This document shows positions 40,801-57,215 of a stretch of DNA of 64,000 nucleotides, piece by piece. The stretch is taken from NCBI RefSeq assembly GCF_030704535.1, contig NC_081817.1, forward strand, positions 4,411,501-4,475,500. The letters are read 5' to 3'. Below the pieces are notes generated by a model that saw only the letters and a list, made by a program, of their open reading frames with translations, did no database searches and was not told where the DNA came from. Every line of letters starts with the position of its first letter. The first letter of the stretch is position 1. This DNA comes from Vitis vinifera (taxonomy: Eukaryota; Streptophyta; Magnoliopsida; Vitales; Vitaceae). A program made the position numbers and the translations under genes.

Positions 40801-50304
<9,504 letters not shown>

Positions 50305-50822
50305 GAATCACCACAGTAGCTTTCTTGAATTGAAACCCTAATCAGAATTGAGAAATAGCTCAATATTTTCGCGTTTAGCTAACAAATATTGCACAAACCT
50401 CAACTGGGGATTGAATATATAGGTTTATGGAGCTCCTCAGTCCTCAGTCCTCACTTCCTCATCGCTCTCGCATTCCCGCCGCCGGTGTTTGGGTGGAACC
50501 ACTTTCCCATTCTCAATCGGAATAAGGAGCGGTGCTGAATTTAAATTATCGCATCCAAACAACAGTCTTTCCCTACAACCGAAAATGCATCATATTCCAT
50601 TAATTAATATCTATGAGCTAGATTTAATTTACAATGTATAAGATATCCTCTGATGTTATGCCATATATTTAGATTCCATTTCACAGTGATTTTATAAAAC
50701 TCTTTTAATTTAAAAGATGGTTTTGAAAAAACATTCGGTGTTTTGTTTAAAAATTTGAAAAATCACTTGTAGTATTAAAAAATTACTTGTAATGTTTTCT
50801 AAAAAAACAAAATCATTGAGAT
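50305..50822. other. Promoter region of ADSL and AT-rich flank
   Basis: Mixed-composition sequence to about 50540 probably holds the 5' UTR and promoter. AT-rich DNA follows. No clear TATA box. Confidence 0.45.
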
Positions 50823-51400
50823 GGTGTTTGGTACGTAAGAATGAAAAATGGGAATAGACATCTCATTTATTTTCTACCTCATTTTCATGTTTGGATAAAT
50901 TTTATGAAAATAGGAATAGAAATAACAATGATTCCGATAAAAATCAAATCTTACTTATAAGTGAGATTTCAATTCATCGTAGTGGTATTATGGTTCATTC
51001 GTTCCATAAGAAAATATTAAATAGTCTAAAATTACTATTTTACCATTGAATTTCGTTCATCGGATGTCTCTTCATCCCATAATAAGACTTATTTTTTTAG
51101 TTTTATTATTTAGTAATAAAAAAAAAAACTCTCAAAAATTTATTTATTTTTAAATGAAAATTAAAAATTTATTTTAAACTATGTGTAAGGGTATTATTGT
51201 CAAAAAAAAATTTAAAATTTTATTTTATTTTATTCCCATTCCTATTATTACCAAACATTGTAATGAAAATAAATAATCATGAATTATAGGTTCATCCGAA
51301 CACTAAAAATTGAATTACCAAATTTATTTCTATTCACCAAAAAAATAGGAATTAAAACAAAATATTTCTTTTCATTCTTTATTCTCGTGTACCAAATACC
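50823..51400. mobile_element. ~580-bp non-autonomous DNA transposon (MITE-like)
   Basis: The ends are inverted: GGTGTTTGGTACGTAAGAAT on the left, against GGTATTTGGTACACGAGAAT when the right end is reverse-complemented. Homology continues for about 28 bp. The interior is AT-rich without coding content. No clear target duplication, so the superfamily is undecided. Confidence 0.6.
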
Positions 51401-52537
51401 TACCTTAAGTTTAAGTAAAAACACCTCCAATTGCACTCTTAGATTATGATAAATAAATAAAAAGCATGTCGGTTTTTTAATATTTAATATTTAAAAATTA
51501 TATTATATTTTAATATTTGTTATTAATAAAAATATGAACCAGTTTACAACTCATAATTTAATAAGTAGTAAACAAAATATAGATAATATATTTTATCACT
51601 CATTTCATTTAATGTCTGGTTTAATATGGTATATAATCCAACCAAATATGAAATAAGATAAGTCTTATCTCATACCGTATTCAATCAAATAATATCACCC
51701 AAAAAAAATTGTAAGTATAATAAATGAAGTTAATTTCATAGTATAAAGTTATGGATAAATTTATTTTAGAAAAAAAAATTAAAATGTTTGAAAAATAATT
51801 TACCAAGTTATTAAAACCTAAATCAAAAAATATTTTTTTCTTTAAAAATTTTTTAACTCTTTGATAAGGGAAAGTAATTTAAAACTGATTTTACTTATAA
51901 AAATGAAAACATTTTTAGTGTTAGGTGCTATGATATTTTATTGTCCCCCGAGGAAGAAGTTTTTAAATTTCCATGTTTGGAATGAAAAAAATTTCAAAAT
52001 TTTTAGTATGTTATAAATGCATTCGATATGATAATAGATGACCACCACCTTCTCCCCGTTTCTCATTTTTTGCTTGCCATGTTTATTACCATTAATGTTC
52101 CATTTATTTTAATTTCATTTATAGTATTTAATGAGACCTATAAAAGGCTCTTGGAATAAAAAGAAAATCTCCAATTCTATCTGGGTCTCTTAGTTGTACT
52201 CTCCTTAATACATTTATGAGAATATTTATATGTTTATAATGTTTTCAAAGGCAGGTCGGAGGTTGAACTGAAAAAGTTATCGATTTACGATTTATTGGTC
52301 GAACAGTATTTGAATCGATGATATCATAAATATATAATTTATATTTTATTAAAATATATATATAACCCAACATGATTTTGATCAACTAATAGTTGATCGA
52401 TTTGATGGCATGACTGTCAATTCAAACTATTTGAAGTCGGATCAATTGTTAAACGATCCAATTCGTCAGATTGAATCGAAAAGGTTGTTGGTCAACGATC
52501 GAACTAGTCAATCTCATTCAATTTTCAAAACATTGTA
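51401..52537. other. AT-rich intergenic DNA, no gene seen
   Basis: No supported exon or RNA gene. It ends at the TRIM array. Confidence 0.5.
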
Positions 52538-54079
52538 TGTAATGACCTACTCCCAACCGTGTAAATATTGTCCACTTTTGATCCAAAGGGGCCCTCATGG
52601 CTTTAAAACGCGTTTATAGGGTTAAGAGGAGTCCATACTTATATAGTGTCAGAAATTTTTCCTCATATTCGATGTGGGATGTCACAAACACCCCCCCCCC
52701 CCCAATGCAGACACAACGTCCTCGTGTCCCACAGGATTGCAGGGCCAAATAGATGAACACCCCTACAGGGCCAAACAAACCACTACACCGAGGTCGGAGA
52801 TTGGCTCTAATACTATTTGTAACGATTTGCTCCCAACTGTGTAGATATTGTCTGCTTTGTACCCAAAGGGACCCTCACGTCTTTAAAACACATCTACAAG
52901 GTTACGAAGAGTTCATACTTATATAGTGTCAGGAACTTTCTCTTTTATTCGATGTGGGATGTCACAAACACCCCCCATGCAGACACAACGTCCTCGTTGT
53001 GTCCCACAGGATTGTGGGGCTAAACAGACAAACACCCTTATTAGACTAAACAAACCACCACACTGAGGTCGGAGATCGACTTTGATACTATTTTGTAATG
53101 ACCTGCTCCCAACTGTGTAAATATTTTCCACTTTGGACCCAAAGGAGCCCTCACAACTTTAAAACGCGTCTATAGGGTTAAGAGGAGTTCATACTTATAT
53201 AGTGCCAAAAACTTTATCTCCTATTCGATATGGGATGTCACAAACCCCCCTCTTCCTCCCCCCATGCAGACACAACGTCCTCGTTGTGTCCCACAAGATT
53301 GTGGGGTCAAACAGATGAACACTCTTTCAGGGCCAAACAAACCCCCACACCGAGGTTGGAGATCAACTCTAATACCATTTGTAATGACCCGCTTCCAACT
53401 GTGTAGATATTATCCGCTTTGAACCCAAAGGGGCCCTTATAACTTTAAAACGTGTCTACAAGGTTACGAGGATTCCATACTTATATAGTGTCAGAAACTT
53501 TATCTTCTATCTGATGTGGGATATCACAAAGACCCCCCATATAGGCACAACGTCCTCATTGTGTTCCACAGGATTGCGGGGCCAAACAGACGAACACCCC
53601 TACGGGGCCAAACAAACCACCACACCGAGGTCAGAGATCGGCTCTGATACTATTTGTAATGACCCGCTCTCAACCGTGTAGATATTGTTTGTTTTGTACC
53701 CAAAGGGACCCTCACGGCTTTAAAACGCATCTATAAGGTTACGAAGAGTCTATACTTATATAATGTTAGAAACTTTCATTTCTATCCGATGTGGGATGTC
53801 ACAAACACCCCCCATGCAGACACAACGTCCTCATTGTGTCCTACAGGATTGCGGGGCTAAACAAACAAACACCCATACTGGGCTAAACAAACCACTACAC
53901 CGAGGTCAGGAATCGACTCTGATACCATTTTGTAACAACCTGCTCCCAACTGTGTAGATATTGTCTGCTTTGGACCTAAAAGAGCCCTTATGGCTTTAAA
54001 ACAAGTCTATAGAGTTAAGAAGAGTCCATACTTATATAGCGTCATGAATTTTCCCTCCTATCTAATGTGGGATGTCACA
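52538..54079 (-). mobile_element. Tandem array of a TRIM (terminal-repeat retrotransposon in miniature): six LTRs, five internal regions
   Basis: Six related LTRs, each exactly 149 bp as I delimit them, lie at 52538-52686, 52818-52966, 53094-53242, 53380-53528, 53655-53803 and 53931-54079. Read on the minus strand they run from TGTGACATCCCACATC to TTACA. Each is separated by an internal region of only about 127-137 bp. Inside each, next to the LTR end, is a TGGTATCAGAG-like site matching the initiator-methionine tRNA, the usual plant primer-binding site; this sets the orientation as minus. A CTATATAAG box lies within the LTRs. Nothing is protein-coding. Flanks TTGTA and TTATA may be a worn 5-bp duplication. 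The copies differ moderately from each other, so the array is not very young. It belongs to the TRIM group that ends GATGTGGGATGTCACA on the other strand. I see no 5S-like part that would make it Cassandra. Confidence 0.88.
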
Positions 54080-55891
54080 TTATATATTTCTCTTTATTCC
54101 TCTTTACATCTAACCTTTCATTTATTTTTATTTATAACAATATAATTTTTTTTAAAAGGTTTTAATTAAAAAACATCTAGAATTCTATGAAATTTGGAAA
54201 ATCATAACGTTCTCTCTTAGAAAAAATAATCTTTTTATCTTATTCTTTACAACTTTTAATTATATTCTTTTATCTTTCCTAGTATTCTCCTCTTTATTTT
54301 ATCAATGATCATTTTTTTTTCTTTACTTTTGATGATCTTTTGAGTTGATGTATTTTTTAAGAATTTATTCCAAATAAATATGAGATTCTACTTTGAATCT
54401 AGTATGCTCTTGTATAGAATCAAAGAAAATGGGAAAAACAAGGTTTTACCATGATAATTTTATATATTATTTTAATATTTTTTTTTCAATATAAATAGTA
54501 AAAGTCTTACGATAATGATTAATACATCATTTTAAATTTTTATTATTATAAATAATCTTTTAGTAAATTATAAATTTCATACTAGTTTCACTCTTTTCCA
54601 ATATCCATGGTATAGTTGGTTAAGGTATAATTTCAATCGGTTGAGGGACAATTGAATATTGATGATACCTTCAATTGAGCTTAGAAACTCCAGTAGTCAC
54701 CTACAAAGTATGATCAATTAAGGGTCTTTTATTACTTGTTGGATTGTCAAGCAAGAAACCTAGAGATTGAAGAGTTTTAAAACATTTATTGATAAGAGAA
54801 CAACTGCATTCAATTGAGAAAATATCATGTCTCTTATTCAAAGCTCTTCTTCTAAATTCATTGATTTTCTACTTGTAAATTCATTAAGTGCATCTTCAAA
54901 TCTATCATAACTTTTCTTTGTATTGTAAGTTAAACCAGTTCCAAGATTGGAAGCATCAATTTCATTCTTTATTTACTCATTGTGAGAGAATAGACGTCAA
55001 GTTGTTTGTAAACTTGAACAGATTGCGAAGGTACATTGAAATCTAAACATCCAAGTATAAAAAAAGTTTGAAGACTTTGACTTTAAAAGTCTTAGTGATA
55101 ATAGAACTCTCAATTAAGAACTTGAGGAAAATAGACATAAATAAAATGTCAAATAGTATTATACATTCTTTCTCTCAAATATCTTTAATTTATTATTATC
55201 TAATTTCTCTATTTAATTTATTATTGTCTTATTTCTCATTTTCTTATTAATTGATTACTTTTTAAAAGGTTTTTAACACCCAATTTACCTCCTCCTCTTA
55301 AGTGATTTGCTTAATCAAATTAGCTGTTTTTTACAAATCAATAATTTATTTGTATAACTTATCCTTTTTTTCTTTAATTAATAAGTAGCATTGGATTGTA
55401 ATAATAGGTGTCGAACCATTATTAACCACGTAAGAATGAAAAAGAATTTTTCTAATTGAGGTCATTGATGCATTAATTAAAACAAGGTTAAAATTTTAAA
55501 ATAACTTTTTTCTTATTTTCCATTACTTATATTTATGATCAAAGTAGTTATAGAATATTAACAAAAAAATCAATTAGAACTGGTTTGGGAATTGTTTTTT
55601 GGACTTGAAAATATGTTTTGATAATTTTTTTTTACTAGAAAGTAGTGTTTTGAGAACTTGTTCTAAAAATTTAAGCACAAACTAACTTTTTTCTTAGTCA
55701 TCAAATGCATCCTTCGGGTCTATAAGTTCGATTTGTCCATTTGCGTTCACTATCGCTTCATCGCATTGCAAGTGGACATGTGGTAGCATTATGGTATTTT
55801 TTAAAAAATATTTTAATTATTTTCAATTATTGTTCAAAAATAAAAATAAAAAAAAATAAAACATGTATAAAGTAGTTTAAAAAAATATTTA
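54080..55891. other. AT-rich intergenic DNA, no gene seen
   Basis: No supported exon. The sequence around 54600-55320 is slightly less AT-rich but has no recognisable family. Confidence 0.45.
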
Positions 55892-56101
55892 GGCTATGTT
55901 TGGTTCCCAAAAAATGCTAAGGAAAGGAAAAAAAATGCAAAGGAAAATAATTTTCTTTAGTTCGGATGACATGGAAAATTTGATGAAAAAAAAATATAAA
56001 GAAAAATATAAAGGAAAATATCATAATATTTTCCCCGATATTTTCCTTAAAAAATAACGAGGAAAATAAGAGGGAATGAGAAGGGAAAAGGGGGGGAAAA
56101 T

Positions 56102-56248
56102 TTATCGGGCTATTATGTCTTCACCGAGCATCTCCTCCCTCTCCCCCACCTCCCTGGCCTTCAGCTCCGCCTTGGACCGCTCCAGCTCCACCACCTTGGC
56201 CCTCAGGCAGGCGATTTCCTCAACGGCATGGCAACTTGGGTCAGCACC
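56102..56248 (-). pseudogene. Coiled-coil gene fragment
   Basis: The minus strand reads [20 protein letters not shown] then [18 protein letters not shown], a heptad-patterned coiled coil in GC-rich DNA, ending in TAA. It resembles the inner coil of a plant coiled-coil protein whose N-terminus resembles the frame at 57914-57612; that link is inference. No start codon or complete gene surrounds it. Confidence 0.45.
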
Positions 56249-56393
56249 AGCGTGGCATCAGCCTTCTTCGCGTCTCTGGAGCGTTGCTCCTGCATCAATC
56301 TGTCCACGACCGACATGGACGACGACGACTATGGGGAGGAGGCCAAGGACCGGCCTTTGATGCTCACCAGTGAGTCCCCAAAAAGCGACGTCG

Positions 56394-56510
56394 TCAATAG
56401 TAGTTGTCGATCCTGACGTCTCCGAACAACTCCATCTCATGCTTCACCTTTTTTGCCGCTAGCACCGGAGGGGGAGCCGACGAATAGGATGACTCCATCG
56501 TGGCCGCCAT
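56394..56510 (-). pseudogene. N-terminal fragment of a prolyl oligopeptidase-like gene
   Basis: The minus-strand frame from ATG at 56510 gives 38 residues, MAATMESSYSSAPPPVLAAK then [18 protein letters not shown], followed by TGA. The end matches the start of plant prolyl oligopeptidase/oligopeptidase B-like proteins (consensus near HxMEMFGDVRVDNYYWLRDD). It breaks off exactly where WLRDD should follow. None of the rest of the ~700-residue enzyme is here, so this is a dead fragment. Confidence 0.6.
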
Positions 56511-57215
56511 TGACGATGACTATGACTATGACGATGACAATGGTGATGGATTTTCGCCGCCTTTGGAATTTGGAGCTTAGCGATGAAAATGATTTTAGGG
56601 TTATTTGATTAAAAGGGATATCAAAAGTGAAAACACTAATTTGATTTTAAAAACATTTAATATAATTTCTTTTTTGAAACATGAAATTTCCTTTTTGTTT
56701 TGTCTTTTTTTTTTTTGGAAAAAGGAAATACTTGTCAATAATTTTTTTTAATAAAATTAAACAAATTTTAAAAATAAATTATGTGTATAATTTTTAATAC
56801 ATTAGAATTATTTTTCTAAATATAAGAATTATTCTATCCTTTTAATTAAATATTTCATGATTTTATAAATCAAGAATTATAATTAAATCTAAATTTTATT
56901 ATTAAAAAATGCAAAATATATAAAAAAAAGAAGTAAAATGTAGTAATAAAGTTATGCTACAATTATGGATTATTGACACTTTTTGGACGATAAAATCATG
57001 TTTGAATTCAATATGTGAAAGTGACTATTCATATTACAAAATAAAGTTGAAGAATCATAACTTAGCTATAAAAAAATAAATGGTCAAGCATATTTGGCGA
57101 AAGAGAATAAAAGGTAAGATGTTTGTTTGATTTATCAAATATTATAAAATTTATATATTTTCATGTTTTTCAATTTCTCGATATGATAGGGTTATGTTTG
57201 GTTCTTAAAGATGAT

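Follow-up and report, generated by a model that had tools for sequence, protein, structure and literature searches.

Tandem TRIM arrays are already known in plants. Gao et al. 2016 defined them as TA-TRIMs in a survey that found such arrays for 129 subfamilies and in 35 of the 43 TRIM-containing genomes, and its account of maize names L3I2 and L5I4 forms and includes PCR validation in that species (PMC4717578). For grape, the same survey lists five TRIM subfamilies with 228 complete and 8,890 total copies. The Wukong TRIM of maize includes elements with six and seven LTRs, which the passages on this family attribute to recombination (PMC4528315), and Cassandra arrays reach up to 13 LTRs, with both recombination and template switching proposed (PMC7215508). 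Tandem LTR-retrotransposons of rice, with a shared inner LTR and a target-site duplication (TSD) on the outside, have been linked to a single insertion in a 2025 paper whose discussion of these elements leaves their formation open between both origins (PMC11899658). The expansion of short tandem arrays within LTR-retrotransposons into satellites has likewise been published (PMC7004042).

The locus described here, in a 64-kb window of Vitis vinifera DNA (the whole stretch that was analyzed, to which all coordinates refer), is a tandemly arrayed TRIM of the form L6I5 and one more example of this kind. It resembles the TA-TRIMs, as far as these are characterized in PMC4717578, in the alternation of LTRs and internal regions and in being non-coding, and differs from the named forms in its L6I5 composition; the single TSD around a TA-TRIM may have its counterpart here in an imperfect near-duplication of the outer flanks. 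Wukong, compared by description only, also forms tandem arrays, mostly in one orientation and with intact internal regions, but its LTRs measure 230 bp and its internal domain 72 bp (PMC4528315). Cassandra likewise forms tandem TRIM arrays; however, its LTRs carry 5S rRNA sequence and its repeat units are reported to show no differences, whereas the present units differ (PMC7215508). An Rfam scan of positions 50000-57000 (E up to 1) returned no 5S rRNA match, and identity with Cassandra was rejected because the LTRs have no such match. The rice work in PMC11899658 covers LTR-retrotransposons in general (gypsy and copia), and the case considered here from it, two elements sharing one LTR, is not a TRIM. 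A degenerate 26-base LTR pattern had no matches in viral or prokaryotic contigs, a result that is not informative on plants, and a search of published texts with LTR sequence words gave no TRIM-titled paper among the matches. The array repeat may resemble a repeat of cucurbits.

All six LTRs, delimited by the conserved ends TGTAA...TCACA, are exactly 149 bp long and lie on the minus strand at 52538-52686 (LTR1, the 3' terminal LTR of the element), 52818-52966 (LTR2), 53094-53242 (LTR3), 53380-53528 (LTR4), 53655-53803 (LTR5), and 53931-54079 (LTR6, the 5' terminal LTR). Between them lie internal regions of 131 bp (52687-52817), 127 bp (52967-53093), 137 bp (53243-53379), 126 bp (53529-53654), and 127 bp (53804-53930), numbered 1 to 5 in this order. 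A repeat search gave LTR-to-LTR spacings of 280, 276, 286, 275, and 276 bp, and Tandem Repeats Finder reported a single array at 52538-54079 with a period of 275, 5.5 copies, and a score of 1832. The preliminary description of this locus had given the same six LTRs, five internal regions, and spacings, correct to the base; it had also stated that the copies differ from each other, and pairwise identity is indeed only 78.5-87.9% among the LTRs (12.1-21.5% difference) and 81.7-88.2% among the internal regions (11.8-18.3% difference). In BLAST, each LTR matched the others of the array with E values of ~1e-31 to 1e-50; no further copy of the element was found in the window, where matches outside the array were 12-20 bp long with E values of 0.025 or worse. 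A two-LTR unit would measure ~425 bp, below the ~1 kb expected of a TRIM with its short direct terminal repeats, and the longest listed stop-to-stop frame across the array is, by length, 106 aa. The spacing differences are due to indels in the internal regions, since the six LTRs align without gaps (894 bp in all). Some four to five indel events, for the most part in runs of C or T, are involved. Chiefly, region 1 has a C run (13 bases near LTR1, read as G on the minus strand) and a 3-base gap, region 3 is ~11 bases longer at its C/T-rich end, and regions 2 and 5 each have one additional T. Slippage-prone sequence is the probable cause of the confinement of indels to the internal regions.

On the minus strand, which is that of the element, the LTRs start with TGTGACATCCC in five cases and with TGTGATATCCC in LTR4, and end with TTACA in all six. 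In each of the five internal regions, a decayed motif resembling the primer-binding site (PBS) TGGTATCAGAGC begins on this strand at the third or fourth base past the LTR and so adjoins the 5' LTR, matching at 10, 9, 10, 11, and 11 of 12 positions in regions 1 to 5. Of the places sampled across the window's first 52 kb, 0.12% matched at 9 or more of 12 positions and none at 10 or more. We take TGGTATCAGAGC to pair with methionine tRNA, that is, to be a Met-tRNA-type primer site, and no tRNA gene for a direct primer comparison was found in the window. PMC2576258 gives TGGTATCAGAGC for the PBS of a grapevine copia family, and the Cassandra query in PMC7215508 contains it as well. A run of at least six G residues, a putative polypurine tract, occurs at the other end of all five internal regions; it stops 2-4 bases (TT, TGTT, TCTT) short of the LTR, and the tract is therefore not clean. 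All six LTRs contain TATATAAG, which may be a TATA box.

Small RNAs in the literature show partial similarity to these LTRs. The Amur grape small RNA va-miR081, as printed in PMC3353164, agrees with each of the six LTRs at 15-17 of 21 positions (52556-52576 and equivalents; the best background match in the first 52 kb was 15), and Cucurbita novel_mir_80, as printed in PMC4444200, matches them at 14-18 of 21 (background 16). No match was found for novel_mir_101, which at 10-11 of 23 positions fell below the background of 16. The similarities hint, weakly, that some such "miRNAs" may derive from a TRIM family.

Array position was judged from the flanking reading frames. A minus-strand frame at 48775-48990 is adenylosuccinate lyase-like (it matches 13 solved sequences with E values no higher than 0.01, the best at 3.7e-11; no Pfam match), and plus-strand frames between 59577 and 61702, three of the ten frames scanned, contain fructose-bisphosphatase domains, sedoheptulose-1,7-bisphosphatase being the top match among named solved proteins. 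This makes an intergenic position of the array probable. Another minus-strand frame (47482-47961), close to the adenylosuccinate lyase-like one, matches zf-RVT, a zinc-binding reverse-transcriptase-associated domain (E 5.9e-09), and is perhaps a retroelement remnant. Elsewhere in the window, at 1150-1395, a 122-bp unit stands twice in tandem without a mismatch (100% matches), a duplication that is presumably recent relative to the array, and three sub-threshold Rfam matches at 56003-56166 (ylbH, with 30.2 bits where the cut-off is 50; mir-1249; and MIR529) are probably due to chance.

The flanks of the array point to one insertion. Immediately outside LTR1 lies TTGTA (52533-52537) and outside LTR6 TTATA (54080-54084), alike at 4 of 5 positions and the best of the 15 possible LTR pairings, the remaining 14 matching at 0-3 of 5. 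Taken alone, this near-duplication is moderate evidence, because random places at the same spacing reach at least 4 of 5 in 2.3% of cases; given that the outer LTRs differ by 17%, a single change among five flanking bases is unremarkable. No target duplication was seen at any inner junction, and the near-duplication enclosing only the whole array thus points to a single insertion, which bears out the preliminary reading of a tandem TRIM with shared LTRs. The same observation speaks against several independent TRIM insertions, adjacent or nested, in which each adjoining LTR pair should have its own target duplication. TRIM families can be abundant, as the 8,890 copies listed for grape illustrate (PMC4717578), but neighboring insertions would not share LTRs, and we rejected independent insertions as highly improbable. 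Tandem repeats are often misassembled, and an assembly artefact had been named as a way in which the array could prove unreal; duplicated reads, however, would be near-identical, which is hard to square with the differences among both LTRs and internal regions, and an artefact is hardly credible here.

Reverse transcription leaves an LTR element with two identical outer LTRs at insertion, and their difference therefore measures the time since insertion. In the present array they differ at 26 of 149 sites (K2P 0.208), which corresponds to an insertion age of roughly 16 million years at the substitution rate of 6.5e-9 used for grapevine in published work; this age is only rough, because methylated repeats change faster. 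The mean distance of all 15 LTR pairs divided by the outer-pair distance is 1.00 (bootstrap 0.78-1.40), and adjacent LTR pairs are no closer than others (means of 26.6 and 25.8 differences). Even the closest LTR pair differs at 18 of 149 sites, giving a closest/farthest ratio of 0.56, and internal-region K2P distances range from 0.134 to 0.217; no pair of units is recent. All statistics are based on 149 columns for the LTRs and 123-131 per pair for the internal regions. Among the variable columns, 44 of 55 in the LTRs and 35 of 43 in the internal regions are purely C/T or G/A, and many of the shared states lie at C/G sites, as expected of deamination. With the ancestor polarized to C and G, a choice that favors this pattern, 10 of 18 CG columns of the LTRs are informative and 71 of 73 A/T columns are invariant.

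Maximum likelihood trees (HKY+G, 200 bootstraps, built from the array copies alone) of the LTRs and of the internal regions had the same topology for units 1-5. Units 2 and 5 were grouped at 87% bootstrap in both, and unit 4 joined them at 58% in the LTR tree and 81% in the internal tree; LTRs 1, 3, and 6 were placed weakly, on branches with 41% and 58% bootstrap. Relative to a star tree, the log-likelihood gain was 11.5 for the LTRs and 5.2 for the internal regions. In star simulations with gamma rates, the LTR gain was reached in 0 of 45 runs and the internal gain in 2%, and in 100 star simulations with context rates, the LTR gain was reached in 1%, the internal gain in 2%, and the summed gain in none. 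Among the context-rate simulations of growth, the summed gain was reached in 1% of runs with growth in the first 20% of array life, 11% with growth in the first 40%, and 68% with growth throughout (60-68% across gamma and context-rate simulations). By contrast, a permutation test that shuffled states within gap-free variable columns (55 LTR, 38 internal, and 87 unit columns; 2,000 permutations) detected no excess spread of distances (p = 0.41 for LTRs, 0.70 for internal regions, and 0.24 for units), although it holds shared-state columns fixed and is thus not a strict star test. Both permutation p values were as high as observed in 50% of context-rate star runs, 43% of runs with growth in the first 20%, 26% in the first 40%, 1% throughout life, and 0% in the last half; the corresponding values for gamma runs were 50, 42-47, 28-33, 0-3, and 0%. 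LTR columns with two states, each present at least twice, numbered 23, against means of 9-11 in gamma stars.

Several explanations of the tree signal were considered and set aside. Parallel change at C/G hot sites explains part of the excess of shared states but not the departure from a star, as simulations with hot sites still reject it. Four overlapping data sets showed no excess of neighboring compatible columns, as a gene-conversion mosaic would give (p = 0.55-0.84). Low distances suggest that INT1-LTR2-INT2 and INT4-LTR5-INT5 could be copies of one three-unit block, but the internal tree leaves INT1 and INT4 unpaired.

To combine these statistics, eight scenarios of 110 runs each (880 in all) were compared jointly and coarsely, the nearest 70 runs being counted under three sets of statistics; the scenarios had equal prior weights, one unit gained per event, gene conversion left out, and context rates taken from the same data, and growth in the last half of array life was not among them. 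Scenarios in which units were added stepwise and only during the first 20, 40, or 60% of array life together made up 64, 69, and 79% of the nearest runs under the three sets, and the comparison thus favors old, stepwise growth limited to early array life. One point against it is that the 23 shared-state LTR columns exceed the mean of every early-growth model (16-17). The preliminary description had offered repeated unequal recombination or insertion of a concatemer as the origin of the array. Recombination gains moderate support from the trees and from early stepwise growth being the best-fitting scenario, and a concatemer, which in either form contributes 19-31% of the nearest runs, is less likely. 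The further suggestion in the preliminary description that some rounds are old is supported by the like grouping of units 2, 5, and then 4 in both trees, a signal that a single simultaneous origin gives in 0-2% of runs.

A concatemer of already diverged units, for instance cDNA of an older array or several family members joined, would have precedents in the tandem Cassandra transcripts reported in PMC7215508 and in the readthrough transcripts proposed for tandem LTR elements in PMC11899658. Such runs have 20.6-24.4 shared-state columns on average, bracketing the observed number, and with intermediate prior divergence their mean LTR likelihood gain is 10.3, near that observed; the grouping of the outer LTRs 1 and 6 with LTR3 against 2, 4, and 5 (58% bootstrap) also fits. 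However, inner LTRs should then be more divergent than the outer pair, whereas LTRs 2-5 average 24.7 differences against 26, and these runs supply 22, 15, and 10% of the nearest; we regard this origin as unlikely. A wider reading, which is possible but doubtful, would be a one-step insertion as a five-unit concatemeric cDNA, the tandem having been built by reverse transcription rather than by chromosomal recombination, possibly with two kinds of unit (2, 4, and 5 against 1 and 3) already present.

Simultaneous origin, through a fresh concatemer of identical units or all-at-once growth at insertion, would accord with the permutation test and seemingly with the gamma simulations. The distances are star-like by permutation and in their mean/outer and closest/farthest ratios, and the rice tandem LTR element is interpreted as a single insertion in the passage describing it (PMC11899658); yet likelihood tests against simulated stars led us to reject it, as the LTR gain was so rarely reached, and with 4, 16, and 9% of the nearest runs it appears improbable. 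For unequal recombination throughout the life of the array and still ongoing, as in a young satellite, the situation is reversed: the tree signal alone fits, the mean/outer ratio lies inside the simulated 5-95% ranges (0.60-1.08 and 0.56-1.10), and Wukong arrays have been attributed to recombination in the account of that family (PMC4528315), but the high permutation p values are hardly ever reproduced, the closest pair differs at more than twice the mean of 7.8 sites in such runs, and the closest/farthest ratio is near or above the upper end of expectation (95% points 0.50-0.58). With 9, 1, and 3% of the nearest runs, we judge lifelong recombination very improbable. The preliminary comparison of the array with an almost young satellite is therefore not supported: its closest LTRs are far apart, the mean LTR distance equals the outermost, and growth over the whole life or its last half fits poorly. 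Nor is it a long homogenized or recently amplified array of the satellite DNA type, consisting of 5.5 units with well-diverged LTRs.

On balance, the locus is probably one old insertion that grew stepwise early on by unequal LTR exchange and then decayed. Encoding no enzymes of its own, the TRIM would have depended for its copying on proteins provided in trans, and one integration would have produced the flanking 5-bp duplication. Units would then have been gained in several steps over roughly the first 20-60% of array life, presumably through unequal exchange among LTRs that had as yet diverged little, with units 2, 5, and 4 as descendants of one branch. Growth would then have stopped, probably through poor recombination of short, diverged LTRs, and afterwards each unit would have decayed on its own, chiefly through C/T and G/A changes.

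Although the single locus is otherwise ordinary, it bears on how such arrays arise. The outermost LTRs, identical at insertion, should serve as a clock for the inner units, and agreement between LTR and internal trees separates stepwise growth from simultaneous origin; here, clock and tree agreement together point to growth that was stepwise but old. For the concatemeric cDNA reading, a comparison of inner with outer LTR divergence could be decisive across the tandem TRIMs of a whole genome. Clock and tree agreement, applied to many arrays of one genome, could decide between recombination and concatemer insertion.
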